DNA of 64,000 nucleotides, from the NCBI RefSeq assembly GCF_023913515.1, contig NZ_CP099391.1:1550001-1614000 (forward strand). Direction: 5' to 3'. A model generated the notes under the pieces. That model searched no databases. It saw nothing but the letters and a program-made list of their open reading frames with translations, and had not been told where the DNA came from. The stretch comes from Natronococcus sp. CG52 (lineage in GTDB: Archaea; Halobacteriota; Halobacteria; Halobacteriales; Natrialbaceae). A program made the position numbers and the translations under genes. Of the stretch, positions 1 to 31,742 are shown in pieces (within the stretch, counting starts at the first letter, position 1; each line of letters opens with the position of its first letter).

Positions 1-1606
1 CGTCGTAAACGGTCGGCGTCGCCCAGAAGAACGTGCGCGAACTGGCGGTGTCGACGACCAGCGACGCCAGCCCGAGCCGGCGCTGGAAGATCGACCGTCG
101 CGTCGTGACGGTCTGGATGCGGTAGTACGGGATCACGGTCGTTCGCCGACGCCAGAATCCGCGTCGAATCACCAGATGGTCCTCCCCGACGTAGTAGCCG
201 AGGTGGGTATACCGCAGGTGCGCCGCCGGCGGGACCGCCACGAAGACGACCGCGGCGAGGTACCAGCGCTCGAGCGGCGTCACCTGGGCGATAACGAACC
301 CCGCGGCGACGATCACGGCCGCGATCAGCGAGTACCGGACGAGATACCGGCGGCGGGCCAGCGGCGGCGGGCTCTCGAACTTCGGCGTCTCGACGCCCGT
401 GAGGGTCTCGGTGAACCGGTGGACGTGCGACGTGCGGGCCAGGGGGACGGCGGACTGGCTTCCGCCGCTGCTGTCCGGACCGTAGCCGGCAGTCTCGACC
501 CACAGGCCGGCGTACTCGATCGCCCGCTGGATCGGGTTGTCGGTGACCGTCACCGACTGGACCTTCTCCACCGGAATCGAGCCGCTGTAGCGCTGGAGGA
601 GTCCGCGCTCGTAGACGAAGTCGTCGCCGACGCGGCCGAGCCGGAAGTCGTAGTACGTGGCGAACGTGTAGGCGACGCTGACCAGGTAGGTGATGACGAT
701 CCCGTTGATCGCCGAGACGACGGTCAACACGCCGTAGCTCCGGGCGTCGCCGGTCGTGAGGTCTTCCGGTCCGCCGAACGGCTGGGAGAGGGCGACGAGC
801 ACCTCGAGGATCGTGTCCGTCGCGAGGAAGAATACGAAGCCGACCGCCGCGACTGCGGCGGGTCGCAGCGTCGTCAGCGAGTAGAGGAGCAGTTCCCTGG
901 ACTCGAGTTCGAACAGTTGCTTTCGCCGGGGTTCGCGCTGGCGACCGGACGAGGGGGCCGGTCGCGGTTCCGCGGACTGACGGTCGGTTTCGATCGGCGA
1001 GGGTCGCTCGTCTTCGTGCGACTCGGCTGGAGCCTTCCGGCTTCTCGTCGCGTCGGCGTCGGCTCCGGGCGCGCTCGACTCCGTCGGCGCTTCCGACTCC
1101 GCGTGCTCCGGCGGTGTGTCCGCTTCCGTCTGCTCCGTCGCGGGCGCATCGGAGCGACCGTTCACCCGGGCCGTCCGGCGCCGGATCTGGTGCTGTAATC
1201 TGTCGGCTTCGGACTTGCTGACGAAATTCAGGGCAGCCTCGCTGCTCCCGCCGCCGGCCGTCTCGACGGTGAGGACGGCGAGGCCGAGCACCCGCTGCAG
1301 GACGCCCTGCCGGACGTCGACGTTCTGGATCCGGCGGTACGGGATCTCCCGGGAGCGACGAGCGAACACGCCGGAGGCGACGTCGAACGTGTCCGGCGTG
1401 ACCGCGTACGCGAACCGGTAGTAGTAGACGACGCCGTAGCCCGCGCCGAGGAGAAACCCGAGCAGCGCGACGAACGGCAACCAGGACATACTGGCGAAAT
1501 CGAAAACGCCCGCGAGTCCGATGACGAGAAAGACCGGGACCCAGAGCCAGAGTAACCCGTACTGGACGGCGTACGTGATCGCGCTGAACGAATGGAGTCG
1601 GTTCAT
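1..1606 (-). CDS. PH-domain membrane protein, YdbT-like (partial, runs off left edge)
   Basis: The frame is open from an ATG at 1606 down to base 2 without a stop, so at least 535 codons are present and the C-terminus is missing. Hydrophobic stretches alternate with bacterial-type PH (bPH2/DUF304) modules; each module shows the hallmark in which an Arg- or Lys-containing 'Q.V' strand (IPYRRIQNV, IPVEKVQSV, IPYYRIQTV) precedes 'LGL..L.V.TA'. Three such modules are visible, as in YdbT. A low-complexity, Glu/Thr/Arg-rich linker lies between modules one and two. The start overlaps the stop of the upstream PH gene by four bases (ATGA), which implies translational coupling. The family is membrane-bound; its biochemical role is unknown. 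Confidence 0.85.
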   Translation of the reverse strand, partial: MNRLHSFSAITYAVQYGLLWLWVPVFLVIGLAGVFDFASMSWLPFVALLGFLLGAGYGVVYYYRFAYAVTPDTFDVASGVFARRSREIPYRRIQNVDVRQGVLQRVLGLAVLTVETAGGGSSEAALNFVSKSEADRLQHQIRRRTARVNGRSDAPATEQTEADTPPEHAESEAPTESSAPGADADATRSRKAPAESHEDERPSPIETDRQSAEPRPAPSSGRQREPRRKQLFELESRELLLYSLTTLRPAAVAAVGFVFFLATDTILEVLVALSQPFGGPEDLTTGDARSYGVLTVVSAINGIVITYLVSVAYTFATYYDFRLGRVGDDFVYERGLLQRYSGSIPVEKVQSVTVTDNPIQRAIEYAGLWVETAGYGPDSSGGSQSAVPLARTSHVHRFTETLTGVETPKFESPPPLARRRYLVRYSLIAAVIVAAGFVIAQVTPLERWYLAAVVFVAVPPAAHLRYTHLGYYVGEDHLVIRRGFWRRRTTVIPYYRIQTVTTRRSIFQRRLGLASLVVDTASSRTFFWATPTVYD

Positions 1607-4377: not shown

Positions 4378-5880
4378 ATGACCCTGCACGTGACGAACAC
4401 GTTGACGGGCGAGAAAGAGCCGTTCGAGCCACAGGACCCCGAGAACGTTCTCCTCTACTACTGTGGTCTGACGGTCTCCGACCCGCCCCACCTGGGACAC
4501 GCCCGCTCGTGGGTCCACGTCGACGTCATGCACCGCTGGCTCGAGCACCTCGGCTACGACGTGCGTCACGTCGAGAACTTCACCGACGTCAACGAGAAGA
4601 TCGTCGCCCGCGTCGGCGAGGACGACCTGGGCGAAGACGAGGCCGGCGTCGCGGAAACGTACATCGAACGGACGCTCGCGGACATGCGCTCGCTCAATCT
4701 CTTGCGGGCTGAGGTCTACCCCCGCGTCTCCGAGCACGTCCCCGAAATCGTCGACCTCGTCGAGACCCTGATGGAGAAGGGCTACGCCTACGAGTCCAAC
4801 GGCTCGGTCTACTTCGACGTCACGGAGTTCGACGGATACGGCGCGCTCTCGAACCAGGATCTCGAGGAGATCGAGTCCCAGGGCGACCCCGACGAGCGCT
4901 CGGAGAAGCGCAACCCCGCCGACTTCGCGCTCTGGAAGGCCGACGGCGTCGATCCGGAGGCGATCGAGGAGCACCGCCACGAGGGCGCAGCGCCCGCCGA
5001 GGAGGCCTGCGAGACGGCCCTGACCTGGGACTCGCCGTGGGGCGAGGGCCGGCCCGGCTGGCACATCGAGTGCTCGGCGATGAGCACGACCCACCTGGAT
5101 GACACGCTCGATATGCACGTCGGCGGCCGCGACCTGGTCTTTCCCCACCACGAGAACGAAATTGCCCAGTCCGAAGCCGCGACGGACCAGCAGTTCGCGA
5201 AGTACTGGCTCCACTGCGAACTGTTCCAGATGGACGACGAGAAGATGTCCTCGAGTCTGGGGAACTTCGTCACCGTCGACCAGGCGGTCGAGCAGTGGGG
5301 GACGAACGTCCTTCGAACCTTCCTCACCGCCGGCGCGTACAACAACGCGCAGCTCTACTCGGACGAGACGATCGCCGAGGCCGAAGAGCGATGGGACCGC
5401 CTCGAGCGCGCCTACGAGGCGGCCGTCGACGTCGTCGACTCGCCGGAGATGAACGCGAAAGCCGCGGACGACGACCTCCGCGAAGCCGTCGCCGACGCCC
5501 GCGAGGAGTTCACGGCCGCGATGAACGACGACTTCAACACCCGCGAGGCCCAGTCGGCGCTGCTGTCGGTGGCGACGGCGATCAACCGCCACCTCGAGGA
5601 GACGGCCGAGGACTACGACTACCGCGGACTGCGGCGGGCGATCGAGACCCTCGAGGAACTGGGCGGCGTTCTCGGACTCTCCTTCGAGGGCGACACCGAC
5701 GGAACGGCGAACCTCGCGGGCGACGTCGTCGAACTCGTCCTCGACGTGCGCGAGCACGAACGCGAGTCTGGGGACTACGAGCGGGCCGACGAGTTGCGCG
5801 ACGAACTCGAGGCGCTGGGGATCGAAGTACAGGATACGGACGACGGGCCGACGTATCGGCTCCCGTCGGGCGACGAGTAG
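4378..5880 (+). CDS. cysS: Cysteinyl-tRNA synthetase
   Basis: 500 residues, class I aminoacyl-tRNA synthetase charging tRNA-Cys. The HIGH motif is HLGH at residues 38-41, the zinc site starts at Cys29 (YYCG) and continues with ECSAM and a downstream HHENE, and the KMSKS motif is KMSSS. An Asp/Glu-rich C-terminal domain of the DALR type follows (DDFNTREAQSAL). Length is normal for the family. The long upstream open frame is read-through of the patatin region in another frame; the ATG at 4378 fits both the family start and a TATA-like sequence near 4347-4354, so the transcript is probably leaderless. Confidence 0.97.
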   Translation: MTLHVTNTLTGEKEPFEPQDPENVLLYYCGLTVSDPPHLGHARSWVHVDVMHRWLEHLGYDVRHVENFTDVNEKIVARVGEDDLGEDEAGVAETYIERTLADMRSLNLLRAEVYPRVSEHVPEIVDLVETLMEKGYAYESNGSVYFDVTEFDGYGALSNQDLEEIESQGDPDERSEKRNPADFALWKADGVDPEAIEEHRHEGAAPAEEACETALTWDSPWGEGRPGWHIECSAMSTTHLDDTLDMHVGGRDLVFPHHENEIAQSEAATDQQFAKYWLHCELFQMDDEKMSSSLGNFVTVDQAVEQWGTNVLRTFLTAGAYNNAQLYSDETIAEAEERWDRLERAYEAAVDVVDSPEMNAKAADDDLREAVADAREEFTAAMNDDFNTREAQSALLSVATAINRHLEETAEDYDYRGLRRAIETLEELGGVLGLSFEGDTDGTANLAGDVVELVLDVREHERESGDYERADELRDELEALGIEVQDTDDGPTYRLPSGDE

Positions 5881-6050
5881 CAGTCACTCCCCCGATCCGA
5901 ACAGCCGTCTCGTCTCGGACACCGGTTTTCGATCAGCGAGTAGGCGACCGCTTCGAGAGGATAGGAACCGACTACCTCGCTCGAGTGACTGATACAGCAG
6001 TGAGACCAACCACGTAACTTATGAGTTAGAGTACGGTGAACGAGACTAGT

Positions 6051-6749
6051 ATGAATCGACGACAGTTCGTTGTCACGGCCGCGGTCGGATGCATCGGCGT
6101 CTCGGCCGGCTGTCTCGGCAGCCTCATCGACGACGTGACCTCCTTCTCGGCGTCGCCGGCGGTCGTCAGCGAGAGCGCGGCCGACGAGGCCGGCTACGAG
6201 TATCAGGGGACCGAAGAGACGGTGCGATCCGAGGAGGTCGCCGGCGAGGACGTCGAGGCGACGAACTACATCTCGGAGTACACCCGAACGATCGAAACAC
6301 CGCTCGGCGCGCTCGGCGGCGACGTCGACGCGGGCGTCTTCGCCGCCATCACGACGCCGCAGGTCCGCGTCGCCGGCGAGGACTTCAACCCGGTCGGCGA
6401 CATGAGCAACGAGGAGATCGTCGAGTTGATCCAGAACCAGTACGACGAACTCGAGGTCGAGAACTCCGTCGGCGGGCGCGCGGTCGAGGCGCTCGACGGC
6501 ACGACCGTCTCGCTCGAATCGTACGAGGGGGAGGCGACCTTCCAGGGCCAGCAGGGTGTCGACGTCTTCCTCGACATCGCCACCCCCGACTACGGCGGCG
6601 ACCACTTCGTGATCGTCGCCGTCTATCCGGACGACGGGAACCTTCCGCTCGAACCCGAGCGCGACCGGGTCGACGTGATGATCCGGGGACTCGAGCACGG
6701 CGACGACGTGGACGCGGAAATCGTTGAGGACGACGCCGACGGCGAATAA
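6051..6749 (+). CDS. Tat-exported lipoprotein, DUF6517-like
   Basis: 232 residues from the ATG at 6051 (a GTG five codons earlier is possible). The N-terminus has a twin-arginine motif (NRRQFVV), a hydrophobic segment and a lipobox ending in SAGC, so it should be exported folded and lipid-anchored outside the cell. The mature part starts with a 'ASPAVVSESAADEAGYEYQGTEE' type block and has several beta-strand patterns; this matches my memory of the haloarchaeal DUF6517 family, whose function is unknown. It is a single gene, 170 bases downstream of cysS. Confidence 0.75.
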   Translation: MNRRQFVVTAAVGCIGVSAGCLGSLIDDVTSFSASPAVVSESAADEAGYEYQGTEETVRSEEVAGEDVEATNYISEYTRTIETPLGALGGDVDAGVFAAITTPQVRVAGEDFNPVGDMSNEEIVELIQNQYDELEVENSVGGRAVEALDGTTVSLESYEGEATFQGQQGVDVFLDIATPDYGGDHFVIVAVYPDDGNLPLEPERDRVDVMIRGLEHGDDVDAEIVEDDADGE

Positions 6750-7090
6750 CTGGCGAGAGACGCTGAAAGAATCGCGGATCGGTATCGGCTGGAGCGTTTC
6801 GGCCGGAGAGCGTGTTTTGGAACGGATCCTGTGCCACCAAACAAATATAATCAGTTTCAGCTGAGAAAATTATTTCTGCCGGCGAGAGAACAGGGGACTG
6901 GCCGGGGATCCATCGACAGTCACAAACTCCTATCAGCCAACTCCCCGGTCGTACCCTATCTAACTGTGACGTGAGAGGATCGCTGAATATCTTCTGGCTC
7001 GAGAGAGCTATCGATCCGCTTTCACTCGTCCCTCGATCGGTGAGGCAGACAGCGGTGGGAGATCGTTTGCCGTTCCGAACATCCTCGAGT
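6750..7090. other. Intergenic region without a recognisable gene
   Basis: 341 bases between convergent genes. A short A/T-rich patch at about 6838-6872 includes a TATA-like run and a TCAGCTGA palindrome, but no open frame with protein-like composition follows on either strand. A promoter for a small RNA is possible and unproven. Confidence 0.4.
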
Positions 7091-7129
7091 TCACCCGAGC
7101 GGCGAGAACACTCGCTGCGCTCCGGGTGA
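7091..7129 (-). terminator. Strong stem-loop after the presenilin-type protease gene
   Basis: TCACCC-GAGCG (7091-7101) pairs with CGCTC-c-GGGTGA (7118-7129), with a further GAG/CTC pairing inside. The stem has about 11 outer base pairs with one bulge and begins only 7 bases past the stop codon of the minus-strand gene at 7136. It may mark the 3' end of that transcript or of both convergent transcripts. Confidence 0.5.
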
Positions 7130-7135
7130 GCGAGC

Positions 7136-8149
7136 CTAGAGGCCGAGCGCGCCGAGGAGCGAGAGACCGCTCGCGAGCGCGCCGAGCAGGTAGCCGCCGA
7201 TCGCACCGCCGTTGAGCAGCGGCAGTCCCGCGTGGGGGCGACCCTTGAGCACCATGTGCATGAGTACGAGCAGACCGGCGAGCGTTCCCAGGATGGCACC
7301 GAGTGCGGGGACGTTCAGGGCGACTCCGGGCACCTCGAGCGTTCCGGCGTCGACGAAGTACGCCGCGCTCGCGACGAGGATGGTCGGGATGACGGCGTCG
7401 CCGAGTCCGATGAAGAGCGCGTCGCGCTCGAGGTCGCCGTCCTCGCCGTCGCCCGGTTCCGAACCGCCCGTGGCCGTCTCGTCCTCGGCGGGGAGACTCG
7501 AGCCGCCGTCGGTCTCCTCCTCGAGAACGTCGTCGGTGCTCCCGTCCGCCAGATAGGAGTAGGAAAGCGTCGTCGGGATCACGAGGACGACGGGGATCTT
7601 CAGATCCATCACGCCCTCGGCGAGGTCGAGCATGTGCTCGGTCCGGTAGACGCTGATCGCGTCGTAGACGGCGAGGACGGCGAGCAGCAAGATCGCCGGC
7701 AGCAGTCCGAAGCTGATCCCGAACAGGGCCGCAGCTCCCGCCCCCATCAGGACCCCGGTGAGATCGATCACGTACCACTCGGGGTAGAACAGCAACGCCG
7801 CACCGACGCCGAGCGCGGCGAGGACGGCGAGCACGTTGGTCGAGCCGGCCGTGACGACCGGCGGCACGAGTTCGGTGAAGACGAACCAGGCGAGCATCAC
7901 GCTCACGCCGATGATCATCGCCCTGATGAGCCACTCGAGGTCGTACCGAAAGGTCGCGAGCATGAAACCGGTCGCGACGAGGATGACTGCGAAGTAGACG
8001 AGGCTGTTGGTCGGGTTCTCGGGGTCGTCGACGGCCTGCCGTTCCGAGTCGTGGAACGGCTCGATCAGTGCCAGCGCCCCGAGCTGGACGCCGAGAAACA
8101 GCAGGACCGTCACGCCGACCGCCACGAGGACCCGGGTCCGGTGGTTCAT
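7136..8149 (-). CDS. Presenilin-family intramembrane aspartyl protease (PSH)
   Basis: 337 residues with about nine hydrophobic segments. The two catalytic aspartates are present in the correct motifs: YD at Asp163 (AVYDAISVY) and GLGD at Asp251 (FIGLGDAVIP). The C-terminal PAL-type motif appears as GLPLLNGGA (308-316). An acidic, low-complexity loop (about residues 200-243) joins the helices that carry the two aspartates, as the equivalent loop does in presenilins. Archaeal members cleave single-span membrane proteins or signal peptides; the physiological substrate is unknown. The closest related genes (gar1, srp19) lie upstream on the same strand, 73 bases away. Confidence 0.9.
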   Translation of the reverse strand: MNHRTRVLVAVGVTVLLFLGVQLGALALIEPFHDSERQAVDDPENPTNSLVYFAVILVATGFMLATFRYDLEWLIRAMIIGVSVMLAWFVFTELVPPVVTAGSTNVLAVLAALGVGAALLFYPEWYVIDLTGVLMGAGAAALFGISFGLLPAILLLAVLAVYDAISVYRTEHMLDLAEGVMDLKIPVVLVIPTTLSYSYLADGSTDDVLEEETDGGSSLPAEDETATGGSEPGDGEDGDLERDALFIGLGDAVIPTILVASAAYFVDAGTLEVPGVALNVPALGAILGTLAGLLVLMHMVLKGRPHAGLPLLNGGAIGGYLLGALASGLSLLGALGL

Positions 8150-8222
8150 AGCGCGGCGTTTGCACCCGTTCCTCTTGGGGTTTTTCGTTGGTCCGCGGGC
8201 GACTCGACCGGTCGCCGCCGGC

Positions 8223-8465
8223 TCACCGCGTGTACAGCGTCGAACTGACCAGCGACGGAAGGTGGACGCCGTCGTCCGGCGTCACCGCCAGGTAGGGGCG
8301 GTCGACGGGGCCGAAGACGTCGACGACGCGGCCGACGGTCTCGAGCGAGTCGTCGAGCACCATCGTCCCGATCTCGTCCTGGAGGGTATCGTCGTCGCCG
8401 CCCGTATCCGTTCGTAAGATCGCCAACCCCTGGGCGGTGCGAACGACCTGTCCGACGCGACGCAT
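8223..8465 (-). CDS. gar1: H/ACA RNP protein Gar1
   Basis: 80 residues. A small beta-barrel protein matching archaeal Gar1: [19 protein letters not shown], then 'IGTMVLDDSLETVGRVVDVFGPVDRPYLAV'. Gar1 joins Cbf5, Nop10 and L7Ae in the guide-directed pseudouridine synthase complex, contacting the Cbf5 thumb loop. The start codon overlaps the stop of srp19 by one base (TGATG), so translation is probably coupled; the srp19-gar1 order is common in haloarchaea as I recall. The longer open frame upstream is only a shadow of srp19. Confidence 0.93.
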   Translation of the reverse strand: MRRVGQVVRTAQGLAILRTDTGGDDDTLQDEIGTMVLDDSLETVGRVVDVFGPVDRPYLAVTPDDGVHLPSLVSSTLYTR

Positions 8466-8746
8466 CAGTCTCGCATCGCCGCGACGTACGCCGCGACGGC
8501 CTGAACGAGGTCGTTCTTCGTCGAGTCGTCGGCACCGCGAACGACGACCCGGCCGCGGTCGGCCCAGTGCTCCCGCGAGTAGGATTTGTCCCGCTCGATC
8601 GTGGCGTCGTAGCCGATCTGCTGGACGGCTTTCGCGATCTCGTCGACCGTCGGCTCCTCGACCGCCAGATCCTCGGCGACCCGTCGTCCCTCGGCCCGGG
8701 AGAGGGTCGTATCGAGATAGGCGGGCCAGATGACGTTCTCGACCAT
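8465..8746 (-). CDS. srp19: Signal recognition particle 19 kDa protein
   Basis: 93 residues from the ATG at 8746, chosen because archaeal SRP19 starts '[12 protein letters not shown]'; an ATG two codons earlier (8752) is possible. Typical features are [17 protein letters not shown], '[16 protein letters not shown]' and the basic [18 protein letters not shown] segment that contacts SRP RNA helices 6 and 8. It helps assemble SRP54 on 7S RNA for co-translational targeting. No 7S RNA gene was seen in this window. It is followed directly by gar1 with a one-base overlap. Confidence 0.95.
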
Positions 8747-8832
8747 ACTCACATTTCGGCAGGCCTACGGGTAAACACTTTTCAAAAGTGGTCGGTTCCG
8801 CGCTCGAGTCGGGTCGCGGTCTCGAGAGCGAG

Positions 8833-9930
8833 CTATTGGCGGCGAACGAGTCCGGCGAGCAGGGCGAGAAGCGCCGCGACGGCGGCGGGAACGCCGAAGC
8901 CGGGGATCGTGTCGTCCCCACCGGCCGCGTCGTCGGCGTCTTCGTCGTCGCTCGCGTCATCGTCGGCGTCGTCGCTACCGGCCTCGAGTTCGGCCTCCGC
9001 TTCGGCGTACGCTTCGGCGTGAACCTCCTGGACGATTTCCTCGATCGCGAGCACGACGAGCGGTCCGGGCTGGTTGATGAACTGAGCGTTGACTTCGACG
9101 AACTGCTCGTTCTGGTAGGCGGTCGTCCCCATCGCGGATTCGCTGACCGGCGGCTCCTCGGCGGAGTCCTCGTAGATGATCCACTCGGGGTCCTCCTCGA
9201 TAACGTCCTCTTCGCTAATCTCCTGCCAGCCCTCGAGTCCCACTTCCGCGCCGAGGTTCTCGACGCCGGCAGTCGTCAGGAGTTCGTGCTGGAAGGTGGC
9301 TTCGCCGGGGGTGTAGCTGCCGATCATCGCGTAGTACGCGAGCGGGTGTTCCTCGTCGGCGGTCGCCTCTTCGATGATCTCGAGGCGCTCGTTCATCCAC
9401 TCGACGGATTCGGCGGCGCCCTCGCACTCGCCGACGAGTTCCCCGGTCGTCCGCACGTTCTCGGCGACGTCGTCGAGGGACTCCTCGACCGGGAAGACGT
9501 AGACGGTTAGCCCCGCGTCGCGGAGCTGGTCGACCACGTCGTCGTTCGCGAGGTGGCTCGCCGCGAGGACGACGTCGGGGTCGCGGTCGATGACTTCCTC
9601 GGCGACCGGACTGCCCATATCGTCGCTGATATCGAGTTCCTCCTCGGCCTCGAGGTAGGCGGTGTACTCGTTGACCGGCATGCCGTCGACTTTCGCCTCG
9701 GCGCCGATCTCGAACGCGATCTGGGCGTCGCTCGGTTGCAGCGCGACGACCGAGTCGGGTTCTTCCTCTATCGTCACCTGCTCGCCCGTCGCGTCCTCAC
9801 CCTCGAAGGGGAACTCGCAGCTCGGCTCTTCCTGCGCGACATTCGCCGTCTGTCCCCCTGCGGCGGCGGCAGGAGTGAACGCGGCGAGTGCGGTCAGTAC
9901 GGCGACGAAAACGATCAGTGAGTTTCGCAT
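8833..9930 (-). CDS. btuF: Cobalamin-type ABC transporter substrate-binding protein, PGF-CTERM anchored
   Basis: 365 residues from the ATG at 9930. A Sec-type signal (about residues 1-25, ending near AAAAGG) is followed by a BtuF/FepB-like periplasmic-binding fold: '[29 protein letters not shown]', 'DPDVVLAAS', '[27 protein letters not shown]'. The C-terminus has an Asp/Glu-rich spacer, then PGFG, a hydrophobic helix and RRQ: a PGF-CTERM signal cut by archaeosortase A, which attaches the protein to a membrane lipid at its C-terminus. It faces btuCD across a 60-base gap. The substrate could be a corrinoid, heme or ferric siderophore; corrinoid is favoured by the BtuD type. Confidence 0.88.
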
Positions 9931-9956
9931 TACTCGAACAGTGGACCCCACTCCAA

Positions 9957-9966
9957 CAAATATTTG
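9957..9966. promoter_or_regulatory. Palindromic TATA box shared by btuF and btuCD
   Basis: CAAATATTTG is a perfect palindrome and the only A/T-rich block in the 60 bases between the divergent starts. Its centre is about 31 bases from the btuF ATG (9930) and about 30 bases from the btuC GTG (9991), close to the archaeal TATA-to-start spacing for near-leaderless transcripts in both directions. Confidence 0.6.
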
Positions 9967-9990
9967 CCTACTGCAAGCGAGCTTTCAGCC

Positions 9991-11013
9991 GTGTCTGATC
10001 GAGGTCGCATCGTCTCGTGGTCATTCGGGCTATCGGTACTGCTCGTCTCCGTCGTCGTCGCGAGCGCGGCGCTCGGGCCGGTTCGGATCGATCCGGTGAC
10101 CGTCTCGAAGGCGATGATCAACTTCGCCGGAGTCGGAACGTACGACGTGCCGGCGACACACCAGACGATCGTCGCGGACGTCCGACTCCCCAGAATCCTC
10201 CTGGCGGCGACGGTCGGTTTCGCACTCGCCGCCGCCGGGACGGTCATGCAGGGCTTCTTCCGAAATCCGCTCGCCGATCCGTCGATCATCGGCGTCTCCT
10301 CGGGGGCGGCCGTCGGCGCCGTCGCCGCGATCGCGTTCCCCGCGCTCGTACCGATCGGGAGCATCCACCTGCCCGCGTTCGTCGGCGCGGTCGTAACCGC
10401 GTTTCTGGTCTACGCCATCGCGACCGAGGGCGGTCGAACGCCGGTCGCGACGCTGTTACTCGCCGGCGTCGCCGTCCAGGCGTTTCTCGGCGCGGTGATC
10501 TCCTACATGCTGGTCCACAGCGGCGAGAGCCTTCGGGAGGCGGTCGTCTGGATGATGGGCCACCTCCACCGGAGCAACTGGGGCGACGTCGGCTTCGCGC
10601 TGCCGGTGACGCTCGTCGGCGTCCTCGTGCTGGGTGCGTACACCCGCGAGATGAACGTCCTCCTGCTCGGCGAGGAGGACGCCCGACACCTCGGGGTGAA
10701 CGTCGAGCGGACCAAACTACTGTTGCTCGCGATTGCGAGCATCGTCACCGCCGCCGGGGTCGCCGTCGCCGGGATCATCGGCTTCGTCGGCCTCGTCGTT
10801 CCCCACATGATGCGGCTGGTCGTCGGCCCGGATCACCGCATCCTGCTGCCGACGAGCGCGCTCGCGGGCGCGTCGTTTCTCGTCGTCGCAGATACTGCCG
10901 CTCGAGTCGGCGCGTTCGGGATCCCGATCGTTCCCGTCGGAATCGTCACCGCGGTCGTCGGCGCGCCCTTTTTCCTCTACCTGCTCACCAGCCGGGAGGT
11001 GCACGCCCTGTGA
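9991..11013 (+). CDS. btuC: Cobalamin-type ABC transporter permease
   Basis: 340 residues from a GTG at 9991, chosen because it sits about 30 bases after the TATA box; a TTG at 9964 would overlap that box. A FecCD/BtuC permease with about ten membrane segments; diagnostic stretches are [39 protein letters not shown] and the ATPase-contact region [16 protein letters not shown]. With BtuF and BtuD it imports a chelated cofactor or iron complex. The stop overlaps the GTG of btuD by four bases (GTGA). Confidence 0.93.
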
Positions 11014-27003: not shown

Positions 27004-28161
27004 TCAGAATAGCGCGTCGAGTTCGCCGCCCGTGTCCATCAGGGTGGCGAACTCGTCCTGCGCGTTCGCCCGAACCGTTTCGGTGGTTTCCTGGGCTTCG
27101 ATCGCGACCTCCTGGAGTTGCTGGATGCGCGGGACGTCGGTTACCCCCGAGAGGAGGACGATCGCTCCGACCTCCTCCCGGTCCGTCGTCGGGTAGTCGC
27201 CGCCGCGGATCTCCATGCTTCCCGTCTCGTCCTCGAGCCACTGTCGACCGCGCTCGACGCCCTTCCGGTTCAGGTGTTCGGGCGGTCCGGTCGCGACGAC
27301 CAGTCCGCGCTCGGCACTCGAGACGTCACAGGGGAGGGTGAGCCGACCGAGCGTCGCCTTCCGGACCAGGCTCGTCATCCGGTTCGTCGCTTCACCCTCG
27401 TCGAACCCGTCGTCGCTGGTGAACGACGAGAGCAGGCCGCTCGAGGTATCGACGGTCTCGCTCGCGTACCCGATCGTCGAGATGCCGTCCGAGAGCGTGT
27501 TGATTATCTCGGAGGAGTCGACGACGCTCTCGGCGACGTGATCGTCGTGGCCGACCTCGCCGGCGGCGAATAGCAGTCCGAACCGCTCGACGATCTCTCG
27601 GTTGATCCGGTCGTAGCCGCCCTCGACGGACTCGCCGGCGCTTCGCCAGACGTCGTTGTCGAAGACGAGCAGGTTGTCGACCTCGCGGACGAACGTCCGG
27701 AACGAACGGGCCGCGTTGAGCGTGTAGATGCCGCCCTCGTCGGTCCCCGGGAGGACGCCCAGCCCGTAGACCGGTTCGGTGTAGATCCGCTTCAGGTGTT
27801 TCGCGAGGACGGGCGCCCCGCCGGAGCCGGTACCGCCGCCCATGCCGGCGACGATGAGGAAGGCGTCGATCTCGTGTACCGGAACCCGGTCGATCGCCCC
27901 CTGGATCTCGTCGATGTCCTCCTCGGTGACGTGAGCGCCGAGTTCGTTGTCCGCACCGACGCCGTGACCTTTCACGCGGGCCTGCCCGATGAGTACCCGG
28001 TTCTGCTGCGGGACGTGCTCGAGGCCCTGCAGATCCGCGGTCGCCGAGTTGACCGCGATCGCCGATTCCACGAAGCCGCCGTCGATCCTGCTGTCGAACG
28101 CGAGGAACTCGTCGACGACCTTTCCGCCTGCCTGACCGAAGCCGATGAGTGCGAGTTTCAT
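27004..28161 (-). CDS. cetZ: CetZ tubulin-superfamily protein (CetZ1-like)
   Basis: 385 residues from the ATG at 28161. Starts MKLALIGFGQAGGKVVDEFL, with the tubulin signature GMGGGTGSGG (106-115) for GTP binding, and 'RIYTEPVYGLGVLPGTDEGGIYTLNAARSF' and 'NRKGVERGRQWLEDETGSMEIRGGDYP' further on. CetZ proteins control cell shape; CetZ1 of Haloferax is needed for rod formation and motility, and this sequence reads very close to it. It is a single gene. The promoter is not at leaderless spacing: a TATA-like sequence on the minus strand near 28256-28268 would give a leader of about 75 bases. Confidence 0.94.
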   Translation of the reverse strand: MKLALIGFGQAGGKVVDEFLAFDSRIDGGFVESAIAVNSATADLQGLEHVPQQNRVLIGQARVKGHGVGADNELGAHVTEEDIDEIQGAIDRVPVHEIDAFLIVAGMGGGTGSGGAPVLAKHLKRIYTEPVYGLGVLPGTDEGGIYTLNAARSFRTFVREVDNLLVFDNDVWRSAGESVEGGYDRINREIVERFGLLFAAGEVGHDDHVAESVVDSSEIINTLSDGISTIGYASETVDTSSGLLSSFTSDDGFDEGEATNRMTSLVRKATLGRLTLPCDVSSAERGLVVATGPPEHLNRKGVERGRQWLEDETGSMEIRGGDYPTTDREEVGAIVLLSGVTDVPRIQQLQEVAIEAQETTETVRANAQDEFATLMDTGGELDALF

Positions 28162-28504
28162 AGCTGATTCTCGTGGCCGTTTCCCACCCGCCACGGATCG
28201 AACGGATCGACCGGTCGGGAAACGGGTTCCACGTGCGGAGCAATTCCGGAATAGGGTATTGTTATGGCCGATTTACCATCGAGTAAAGAGTGTCTTCTTT
28301 ACGTGAAAGTAAAGAAAAATGACTCTGCTGTAACGATGATAGACAGACACCTCGATCGGAGACGTCGTTCGCGAGTGGTCGCATCGAGCTGAGATCGCCG
28401 GTGTCAGCTGGGATCTCGAGGGAGATGGGGGGCCGAAACGCCGTTTTTCGAGTTGTCGCTTCCAGAGTAAGTCCTATACACGGTGATGGCATAGCTGCTC
28501 GTAT
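28162..28504. other. Divergent intergenic region between cetZ and a solute-binding lipoprotein
   Basis: 343 bases with no gene. It carries the TATA-like region of cetZ (about 28256-28268, minus strand), an A/T-rich inverted repeat (28296-28315) and a TATA-like CCTATACA (28473-28480) about 27 bases before the plus-strand ATG at 28505. Confidence 0.55.
28296..28315. promoter_or_regulatory. Inverted repeat upstream of cetZ
   Basis: TCTTTAC-gtgaaa-GTAAAGA has perfect 7-base arms, and a third GTAAAGA copy lies at 28283-28289. It sits upstream of the presumed cetZ promoter and far (190 bases) from the plus-strand gene, so a cetZ regulator site is the simpler reading. Confidence 0.45.
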
Positions 28505-30250
28505 ATGGACGACGTCGGTGCGTCGACGACGCGTCGGAGGGTACTCGCCGGGGCGACTACCGGGATCGCCGGTGCGCTCGCCGGGTGTGCGGAGAACCTC
28601 TGGTCACGGGCCGAAAACCCCGGCCCGGAGCAGGTTTCTCTCACCATCAAGGCAGTGCCCGCCGACGACGACGTCGTCGGCGCGAAGATCGCGAGTAAAC
28701 TGCGAGAGAACTTTCAGAAGGCCGGAATCGACGCGACGTTCGAGCCGACGGCCAAGGCGGAACTCTACCGGGAGGTCCTCCTCGACGGCGAGTACGACGT
28801 CTTCATCGACAGGTGTGCCGAATTCGACGAGTACGACTGCCTTCGCGGGCTGCTCCACTCGCAGTACGTCAGTGAACGCGGCTGGCAGAACCCGTTTCAC
28901 TTCTCCGACGTAACCGTCGACGAACTGCTCGAGTCACAGCTTACGACCGAGGGAGAAGAGCGCGAGCAGTCGCTCTCCGAACTATTCGATCACCTGACGG
29001 AGACGGTTCCGTACACCGCCGTCGCGTTCCCCCACCGAATCGGCGCCGCACGGAACGAACTCTCCGTCCCCGCACCGCCGCAAGAGCCGCTCGACTACGT
29101 CGAGATCATGTCCCGGGAACCCGACGGAGGCTCCCGGGACGGACCGCTCGAGGTCGGCGTCTTCGGCGAGCAACTCACCGACCGGCTGAATCCGATCGTC
29201 GTCGATCGCAACAGGATCTTCGGGCTGTTGGAACTGGTGTACTCGCCGCTGGTCTACCGAATCGACGACGAAGATATCCTGTGGCTCGCCGACGACATCG
29301 AGTGGGAGTCGGGTAGTCGACTCGGTGCGACGGTCACGTTGCACGATAACGTGACCTGGCACGACGGATCGTCACTCGACGCCGACGACGTCGCCTTCAC
29401 GTACCAGTTCCTCGAGGATACGTCGCTGGGCGAGGCCGAAAGCGGTATCCCCGCACCACAGTACCGGGGCCAGCAGAGTCTCGTCGAGAACGTTGCCGCG
29501 ATCGACGATCGAACGGTCGAGTTCACCTTCGGAACCGTCAACCGGTCTATCGCGAACCGGGCGCTCCGAATCCCGCTGTTGCCAGAACACATCTGGGAGC
29601 CTCGCTCGGCCATCGTCGGAGAGCGCCAGACAGAGGCGCTCGTCGACGACAACGAGGAACCGATCGGCTCGGGCCTGTTCGCAGTCGGTGACATCACCGA
29701 CGATGCCGAGATCGAACTCGAGCCCTTCGACGATCACGTCTTCCGTGACGAGTCGACCGATCGGCCTTCGATCCTCGATGATTTCCCACAGTTCGAGGGG
29801 ATCCGGTTCCAGATCGCGCCGAACGCCGGCACGCTCGTCGACCTCCTCGCCGAGGGAGAGGTCGATCTCACGGGCAGTCCGCTCCCGGCGGACGAAATCA
29901 ACGCGGTCCTCGAGAACCCGGATCTCTCCGCGCTCACCGAACCGACCGACGAGTTCTACATGGTCGGCTACAACGGCCACCACCAGGAACTCGGCAATCC
30001 CAACGTTCGCCGAATCCTCTCCCGGCTGATCGATCGCGAACACGCCGTCGACGAACTGTTTTCCGGCTTTGCGGAGCCGGCGCGAACGCAGGGCTCGCTG
30101 TTCGGGATCAGAGACACCGAACTGGCGGACGACGAGGACACGATGATCACGAACTTCCCCGGTTCGGACGGCGAAGTCGACTCGAGTCGGGCCCGAACTC
30201 TCTTCGAGGAGGAAGGATACGGCTACGAGGACGGCGTCTTGCTCGAGTAG
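28505..30250 (+). CDS. Peptide/oligopeptide-type solute-binding lipoprotein, circularly permuted order
   Basis: 581 residues. A Tat signal (TTRRRVLAG) ends at the lipobox Cys28. The binding-protein family 5 (DppA/OppA) pieces are in unusual order. Residues 44-204 match the usual C-terminal part ('VSLTIKAVP', 'LRENFQKAGIDATFEP', 'LLDGEYDVFIDR', 'HFSDVTVDELLE', 'VPYTAVAFPHRIG'). Residues 214 onward match the usual N-terminal part ('LEVGVFGEQLTDRLNP', 'DNVTWHDGSSLDADDVAFTYQFL', 'GSGLFAVG', 'VRRILSRLIDREHAVDELF'), and the protein ends at 'FEEEGYGYEDGVLLE', exactly where the usual C-terminal part would begin. No permease or ATPase genes are adjacent. It is probably an extracellular, lipid-anchored binding protein or sensor. 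Confidence 0.82.
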   Translation: MDDVGASTTRRRVLAGATTGIAGALAGCAENLWSRAENPGPEQVSLTIKAVPADDDVVGAKIASKLRENFQKAGIDATFEPTAKAELYREVLLDGEYDVFIDRCAEFDEYDCLRGLLHSQYVSERGWQNPFHFSDVTVDELLESQLTTEGEEREQSLSELFDHLTETVPYTAVAFPHRIGAARNELSVPAPPQEPLDYVEIMSREPDGGSRDGPLEVGVFGEQLTDRLNPIVVDRNRIFGLLELVYSPLVYRIDDEDILWLADDIEWESGSRLGATVTLHDNVTWHDGSSLDADDVAFTYQFLEDTSLGEAESGIPAPQYRGQQSLVENVAAIDDRTVEFTFGTVNRSIANRALRIPLLPEHIWEPRSAIVGERQTEALVDDNEEPIGSGLFAVGDITDDAEIELEPFDDHVFRDESTDRPSILDDFPQFEGIRFQIAPNAGTLVDLLAEGEVDLTGSPLPADEINAVLENPDLSALTEPTDEFYMVGYNGHHQELGNPNVRRILSRLIDREHAVDELFSGFAEPARTQGSLFGIRDTELADDEDTMITNFPGSDGEVDSSRARTLFEEEGYGYEDGVLLE

Positions 30251-30366
30251 CCGGCGATAGCGCGCTCTCCGGAGCGGGACGGACGTCGATTCGCGTCTTC
30301 GTAACCGCGACGCGGCGGTGAGTCAACCGGACCGTATTAATGCCTTCCGAGCAGTATGTACCATAT

Positions 30367-31242
30367 ATGACGCTGCTCGACGTCGTCCTCGAGCTCACGA
30401 TCGTCGTGACGGCGATGCTCGTCACGGCGACGCTCGTGCTCGTCGGACCGCAGCGGATCGCGGCTGCACTCCGCGGCTATCGGTGGCGGCTCGAGGCGTG
30501 TCTGCTCTCGATCGCCGCGCTCGGAGTCGTGTTAGCTCTCCGGCTGTCGACGCGAGACGTGGTCCGGCGGCTCGAGTGGCGCGTGGTCGGACACAACATC
30601 ACGAACGACCTCTTCGCGCTGGAACAACAGCTCTTCGGCGAGACACCCGTCGCGATCCTCCAGTCCGCCCAGACCGAGGTGCTCACCTCGTTTTTCGTCT
30701 TCGTCTACATCTACGGCTACGCGTTCTTGCTCCTGTTCCCGATCATCGCCTACTTCGCGCTCGACGAGATGGACGAACTCTCCACGCTGATCCTCGCCTT
30801 TGCGGCCAACTACGGGATCGGACTGCTCTGTTACGTCCTCTTTATCGCCTACGGGCCGCGAAACTTCGATCCGATGCAGTTCGAGGGGCTGCTCTATAAC
30901 GCCTTCCCCCAGGCGCGAAGCCTCACCAACCAGGTCAACCAGAACACGAACGTGTTCCCGTCGCTGCACACGTCGCTGTCGATGACGGTGTTCTTCGCCG
31001 CCTGGCTGACCCGCGATCGGTATCCGCTGTGGGTTCCGCTCTCCGGTTTTCTCGCGATCAGCGTCGCGATCTCGACGATGTACCTCGGCATCCACTGGTT
31101 CTCGGACGTCGTCGCGGGAACCCTGCTCGCGCTGGTTAGCGTCCACATCGGCGCCAGCTACACCGTCGAAGGGTTCGTCGCGACGGGGCGACAGTACCTC
31201 GGCCGGCGATTCGACGGGCTCGGAAAACCGGGTAGCGAGTGA
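30367..31242 (+). CDS. PAP2-family phosphatase (membrane)
   Basis: 291 residues from the ATG at 30367, chosen because a TATA-like GTATTAAT (30333-30340) is about 30 bases upstream; an ATG at 30340 overlaps it. Six or so membrane segments with the phosphatase motifs PSLHTS (198-203) and GIHWFSDVVAG (His243, Asp247). The spacing and the 'NVFPSLHTSL' form resemble the inositol-phosphorylceramide synthase/AUR1 branch, so it may act on a polyprenyl or lipid phosphate at the outer membrane face. The substrate is not deducible. Confidence 0.87.
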   Translation: MTLLDVVLELTIVVTAMLVTATLVLVGPQRIAAALRGYRWRLEACLLSIAALGVVLALRLSTRDVVRRLEWRVVGHNITNDLFALEQQLFGETPVAILQSAQTEVLTSFFVFVYIYGYAFLLLFPIIAYFALDEMDELSTLILAFAANYGIGLLCYVLFIAYGPRNFDPMQFEGLLYNAFPQARSLTNQVNQNTNVFPSLHTSLSMTVFFAAWLTRDRYPLWVPLSGFLAISVAISTMYLGIHWFSDVVAGTLLALVSVHIGASYTVEGFVATGRQYLGRRFDGLGKPGSE

Positions 31243-31430
31243 GGGTGGCGCCGCAACCAGCCGTCGATCCGTCGTGTGACGCGGTTCGTCGGCACGCGGG
31301 AGGTTTCACACACCCCCGCGTTCGACCTCGGTAACCGGCCTCTTCAGCACGTATTCGGCCCGTACCGGCCGTTTGTCACGGTACCACAATGACCACTATC
31401 CTTATCGGTGGCAACCTGTTAGCTACTCGT

Positions 31431-31742
31431 ATGACCTCTCCACACGATACGTCGGCGCCCGGAGGAGAGGAGAAACCGACGCAGTCGATCATCGAGGGAG
31501 TCGCTCGTCACGAGGGCGTCGACGTAACGGAGGTCGAACCACCCGCGTACGAACCGCTTTACACCGTTGTAAATCCCGAAGCGCTCGACACCCTGTTTCG
31601 AACCGCAACCGGTTCCGACACGGCCAACGCGCGCGTTTCGCTCGAGTACGCGGGGTACGATATCACCGTCTACGGCGACGGACGCGTCGACGTCGCGGAT
31701 CCGTCGACCGGGGAGGTCGTTCCCGACCACGTCGAGGAGTAA
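31431..31742 (+). CDS. Stand-alone HalOD1 domain protein
   Basis: 103 residues from the ATG at 31431, at leaderless distance from the TATA-like TCCTTATC (31398-31405); an ATG at 31389 lies upstream of that box. The core 'SIIEGVARHEGVDVTEVEPPAYEPLYTVVNPEALDTLF' followed by 'ARVSLEYAGYDITVYGDGRVDV' is the halobacterial output domain 1, usually fused to sensory modules but here alone. A second copy of the family is at 54381-54638. Presumed role in signal transduction or gene regulation, not proven. Confidence 0.82.
   Translation: MTSPHDTSAPGGEEKPTQSIIEGVARHEGVDVTEVEPPAYEPLYTVVNPEALDTLFRTATGSDTANARVSLEYAGYDITVYGDGRVDVADPSTGEVVPDHVEE

Follow-up and report, generated by a model that had tools for sequence, protein, structure and literature searches.

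A transporter-free, circularly permuted family-5 solute-binding protein of Natronococcus paired with a PAP2-type membrane protein, and repeated change of block order among its relatives

A circularly permuted solute-binding protein (SBP) is already known for a fold different from that described here, namely TpMglB-2 (Tp0684) of Treponema pallidum, a permuted glucose-binding lipoprotein of 'Type Ic / cluster Bc' (PMC4990184). In the open-access papers searched on permuted solute- or oligopeptide-binding proteins and on PAP2 proteins in connection with SBPs or haloarchaea, TpMglB-2 was the only relevant system, and we found no account of permuted family-5 SBPs, of SBP operons in which permutation recurs, or of a module made up of SBP and PAP2. 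The gene analyzed in this study lies in a stretch of 64,000 nt (hereafter, the window) from Natronococcus sp. CG52 (GCF_023913515.1, NZ_CP099391.1, positions 1,550,001-1,614,000 of the forward strand). It occupies positions 28505-30250 of the plus strand and encodes a 581-aa putative lipoprotein of the family-5 (DppA/OppA-type) SBPs, which scored 136 bits against SBP_bac_5 (PF00496; cut-off, 32.4 bits) in the Pfam profile search. A CetZ tubulin-like gene (27004-28194, minus strand) is its divergent neighbour.

Reading of the sequence points to a twin-arginine-like signal followed by a lipobox (MDDVGASTTRRRVLAG...LAGC, Cys28; 28505..28588, plus strand). The RRR motif and the LAGC lipobox are visible at the start of the protein, and RR and GC are kept in the alignment of its relatives; the Tat model TIGR01409 of NCBIfam gave a match below its cut-off only. 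Behind this signal, all on the plus strand, come the C-terminal-type SBP block (residues 44-204; 28634..29116), located by hhalign, by an HMM made from SBPs of the same genome and weakly by Pfam, then a new linker between the blocks (residues 205-213; 29117..29143), which connects the old C-terminus to the old N-terminus and is variable in the alignment, and last the N-terminal-type block (residues 214-581; 29144..30247), supported by Pfam, hhalign and the AF2 model.

As judged from profile comparison, the family-5 SBP of the window has undergone natural circular permutation and, though homologous to the members of canonical order, is not one of them. The preliminary description had proposed this permutation, and its block boundaries agree well with our results. 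Two matches in swapped order were obtained with SBP_bac_5, residues 260-577 corresponding to profile positions 5-283 and residues 54-102 to positions 296-344, the latter weakly (E 0.021), and when the protein was re-joined in normal order a single Pfam stretch covered positions 5-344 with 148.7 bits, against 136 bits for the natural order. The HMM of the window's genome, for which five SBP5 proteins of normal order were used, also gave two matches, with profile positions 354-492 ahead of 47-339. Upon rotation of the mature chain by about 190 residues the best single-match score against this HMM increased from 113 to 131 bits for the window protein and from 120 to 165 bits for a paralog, with little or no gain for two normal-order controls. 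By hhalign, residues 42-208 were aligned with columns 507-653 of the 675 columns of normal SBPs (E 2e-8), and the N-terminal-type block (residues about 200-577) with columns up to 499 (E 3e-40). The PDB match 5isu_A was likewise swapped, query residues 208-527 falling on 12-303 and, weakly, 62-177 on 356-465. Both blocks meet at one loop. In the AF2 model, which is of middling confidence (pLDDT 66, pTM 0.63), residues from about 205 to 580 superpose on the first 345 or so residues of DppA, NikZ and AppA with Z of about 20-22 (1dpe, 4oet, 1xoc), the match of 213..577 to 1..345 of DppA (1dpe) giving Z 20.2. The alignment by sequential structure aligners spans residues 205-578 and leaves the first block uncovered; the fold matches were all family-5 proteins among the matches listed.

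The weakness of the first block when taken alone in Pfam, together with the poor model obtained when it was folded in isolation (pLDDT 48), might be taken to mean that an unrelated domain, residues 44-204, was fused to the front of a truncated SBP, or that the match in swapped order arose by chance or artefact. Such a reading is, however, extremely improbable, given that the profile-profile comparison assigns these residues to exactly the missing part of the SBP, that rotation or re-joining lifts the profile scores, and that orthologs in a sister family are 72% identical with their blocks swapped. Fusion of an unrelated domain is ruled out by the profile-profile comparison and by these swapped orthologs. 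The whole swapped order is kept in homologs of 33-85% identity from many genomes, and the permutation is therefore not an artefact of assembly or reading frame.

Full-length homologs in the same order were identified in most of the related genomes sampled, and Halobacteria commonly carry permuted family-5 proteins. Among the SBP5 proteins counted in the fetched loci, 111 were permuted and 42 had the normal order; because permuted queries had been used to collect most of these loci, the ratio is not to be read as a frequency. Of the 11 SBP5 proteins of the window's genome, 4 are permuted. Many of the permuted SBPs outside the clade of the window protein are encoded inside complete DppB-DppC-DppD-DppF operons, so that permutation alone does not imply a role other than transport. 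A tie between the permutation and the absence of a transporter fails in the face of these operons, and permutation as a mark of lost transport is ruled out. Permuted SBP5 genes are also carried by alphaproteobacterial plasmids of Ketogulonicigenium, Nitratireductor and Roseomonas, with permease and ATPase genes adjoining. Two bacterial operons with permuted SBPs (L163 and L165) adjoin M28/M20 peptidase and hydantoinase/oxoprolinase genes, which suggests the uptake of peptides or cyclic derivatives.

The swapped order appears to have arisen several times among the related archaeal and bacterial proteins. The DppBCDF-linked SBP at C1:818397-820349 of the window's genome has orthologs in both orders. 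A normal-order protein (L110) and a permuted one (L091) share 72% identity over both blocks, which are exchanged behind the same signal peptide, and their neighbourhoods are syntenic, with permeases of 86-90% and ATPases of 71-86% identity and conserved flanking genes. The evidence for circular permutation in nature often comes from distant homologs, whereas here 72% identical orthologs from the same operon exist in both orders; together with the repeated change at the same loop, they make the mechanism of permutation and its effects on folding and docking testable with matched natural pairs. In the tree of de-permuted sequences for the family of C1:818397-820349, 4 changes of order were counted, at least 2 of them on starred branches. 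The overall tree, in which neither the root nor the direction of the individual changes is settled and some joins, such as that of L011 with L145, lie on long branches, gave 7 changes, at least 4 of them on well-supported (starred) branches. These trees argue against the permuted order having arisen only once.

The loci L169 (in G142, 7117-9120) and L170 (in G128, 7547-9553) are orthologous and syntenic DppBCDF operons, in which one SBP is normal and the other permuted, with blocks 72% identical. The permuted SBP5 of L152 (in G102, 8209-10101, minus strand) lies in a DppBCDF operon and groups on a long branch with normal-order proteins, being perhaps another independent permutation. In the window protein, the cut lies in the loop ahead of the strand '(S)LTIK', a short linker connects the old ends, and the export signal has kept its place in front. 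The permutation may have taken place through tandem duplication. In another haloarchaeon, two family-5 SBPs are fused in one frame of 1582 codons in the arrangement N-C-N-C (L168 in G063, 5114-9859, minus strand), possibly the kind of intermediate expected from tandem duplication.

No gene for a DppBC permease or a DppDF ATPase was detected beside the window gene or the clade members checked. The earlier remark that the gene has no neighbouring permease or ATPase is thus right for the adjacent genes, the nearest ABC genes being located at about 33.0-37.8 kb on the opposite strand. In the trees, the window's clade groups with ABC-linked permuted SBPs, its exact sister group not being firmly resolved; from this grouping, the permutation probably preceded the loss of the transporter in this clade.

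The conserved partner of the SBP gene is instead a PAP2_3 phosphatase/phosphotransferase-like membrane gene (30340..31242, with the start at 30340 or 30367; plus strand), which lies immediately downstream and had been overlooked in the preliminary description; it was recognized by PF14378, by homologs and by adjacency, its match to PAP2_3 (PF14378) having E 1.5e-18 and 67.8 bits (cut-off, 27). With residues counted from the ATG at 30367, the catalytic residues H201, H243 and D247 are present in 100%, and the catalytic R165 in 99%, of 73 homologs. Downstream of this gene lies that of a small HalOD1 / DdfA-like protein (31389-31742). For the 76 SBP genes of the window's clade with enough flanking sequence, the PAP2 gene follows directly on the same strand in 72, whereas it does so in 0 of 76 other SBP5 genes; exceptions to the pairing do exist, 4 genes of the clade being without an adjacent PAP2 gene. 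The distance matrices of SBP and PAP2 are correlated with r = 0.94, a value that partly reflects shared species history (shuffles, at most 0.11), and where SBP-PAP2-SBP-PAP2 cassettes occur in tandem, 8 of 9 comparisons showed agreement between the partner classes. The window's genome carries three SBPs of this clade and three PAP2 homologs, each SBP with its own PAP2. By comparison by hand, the SBP clade and PAP2 are present or absent together in 60 of the 61 genomes, and the one deviating genome is an incomplete draft. The pair co-duplicates and co-occurs; adjacency and co-evolution are no proof of contact.

Taking these results together, we consider permutation plus a functional partnership with PAP2 to be probable. 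The window's clade has lost the DppBCDF transporter, and its partner is now almost always a PAP2_3 membrane enzyme. As the most likely mechanism, the lipid-anchored Venus-flytrap would capture its ligand on the outer face of the membrane, and the SBP would dock, by physical contact as we infer, on the PAP2 enzyme, which would either receive the ligand, possibly a phosphorylated or lipid-linked one, from it or be switched by it. The active site of known PAP2 enzymes faces the outside, where a lipoprotein would also sit. As to the exact step, delivery of the ligand to PAP2 or gating of PAP2 by the SBP is put forward tentatively, at rather less than an even chance.

Alternatively, the protein might be an orphan transport SBP that feeds a DppBC permease encoded elsewhere, with PAP2 pre-processing a phosphorylated substrate for scavenging; the window's genome does contain both normal-order and permuted DppBCDF operons, which could be shared, and the grouping of the clade with ABC-linked permuted SBPs points the same way. 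We regard this as unlikely, because the next gene is PAP2 at the 72 paired loci, neither a Dpp permease nor a Dpp ATPase was seen adjoining those of them that were checked, and each of the three SBP copies in the window's genome is accompanied by a PAP2 of its own. Less likely still is a sensor, as the preliminary description had suggested, in which the ligand-bound SBP would signal through a membrane receptor with PAP2 as one signalling output. SBPs serve as sensors in some known systems, and the lack of an adjacent transporter would fit, but the idea gained no specific support: no receptor, transducer or kinase gene was recognized directly beside the window SBP, and its conserved neighbour is an enzyme, PAP2_3 (72/76).

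The favoured reading, a partnership of SBP and PAP2, suggests that a binding protein may work for an enzyme instead of a transporter, a role so far overlooked in genes whose only annotation at present is 'ABC transporter substrate-binding protein'. The full proposal combines a haloarchaeal two-gene module, in which a transporter-free permuted SBP loads or gates an outward-facing PAP2, a use not described before, with a permutation hot spot of family 5 at one loop, where the order would flip repeatedly while the operon stays; for this combination as a whole we see close to an even chance.

When compared with the known systems, the partner gene keeps the PSxH, the second His and the Asp of the PAP2_3 enzymes, and its match to solved PAP2 structures is weak at best (5jki, E 0.013). 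To our knowledge, no PAP2 has been described as acting together with a solute-binding protein, and the SBP-PAP2 pair is possibly a new module. With the family-5/cluster C SBPs such as DppA, OppA, AppA and NikA, the window SBP has in common the homologous blocks and a putative lipoprotein-type export signal, but it differs from them in the swap of the blocks at one loop and in having a PAP2 gene in place of adjoining DppBCDF. TpMglB-2 resembles it in being a natural circular permutation of a tethered SBP, in that case one that keeps ligand binding, and differs in its type I/cluster B sugar-binding fold and in being thought to serve an ABC transporter (PMC4990184). The permutation of TpMglB-2 is a separate event, in a family unrelated to family 5.
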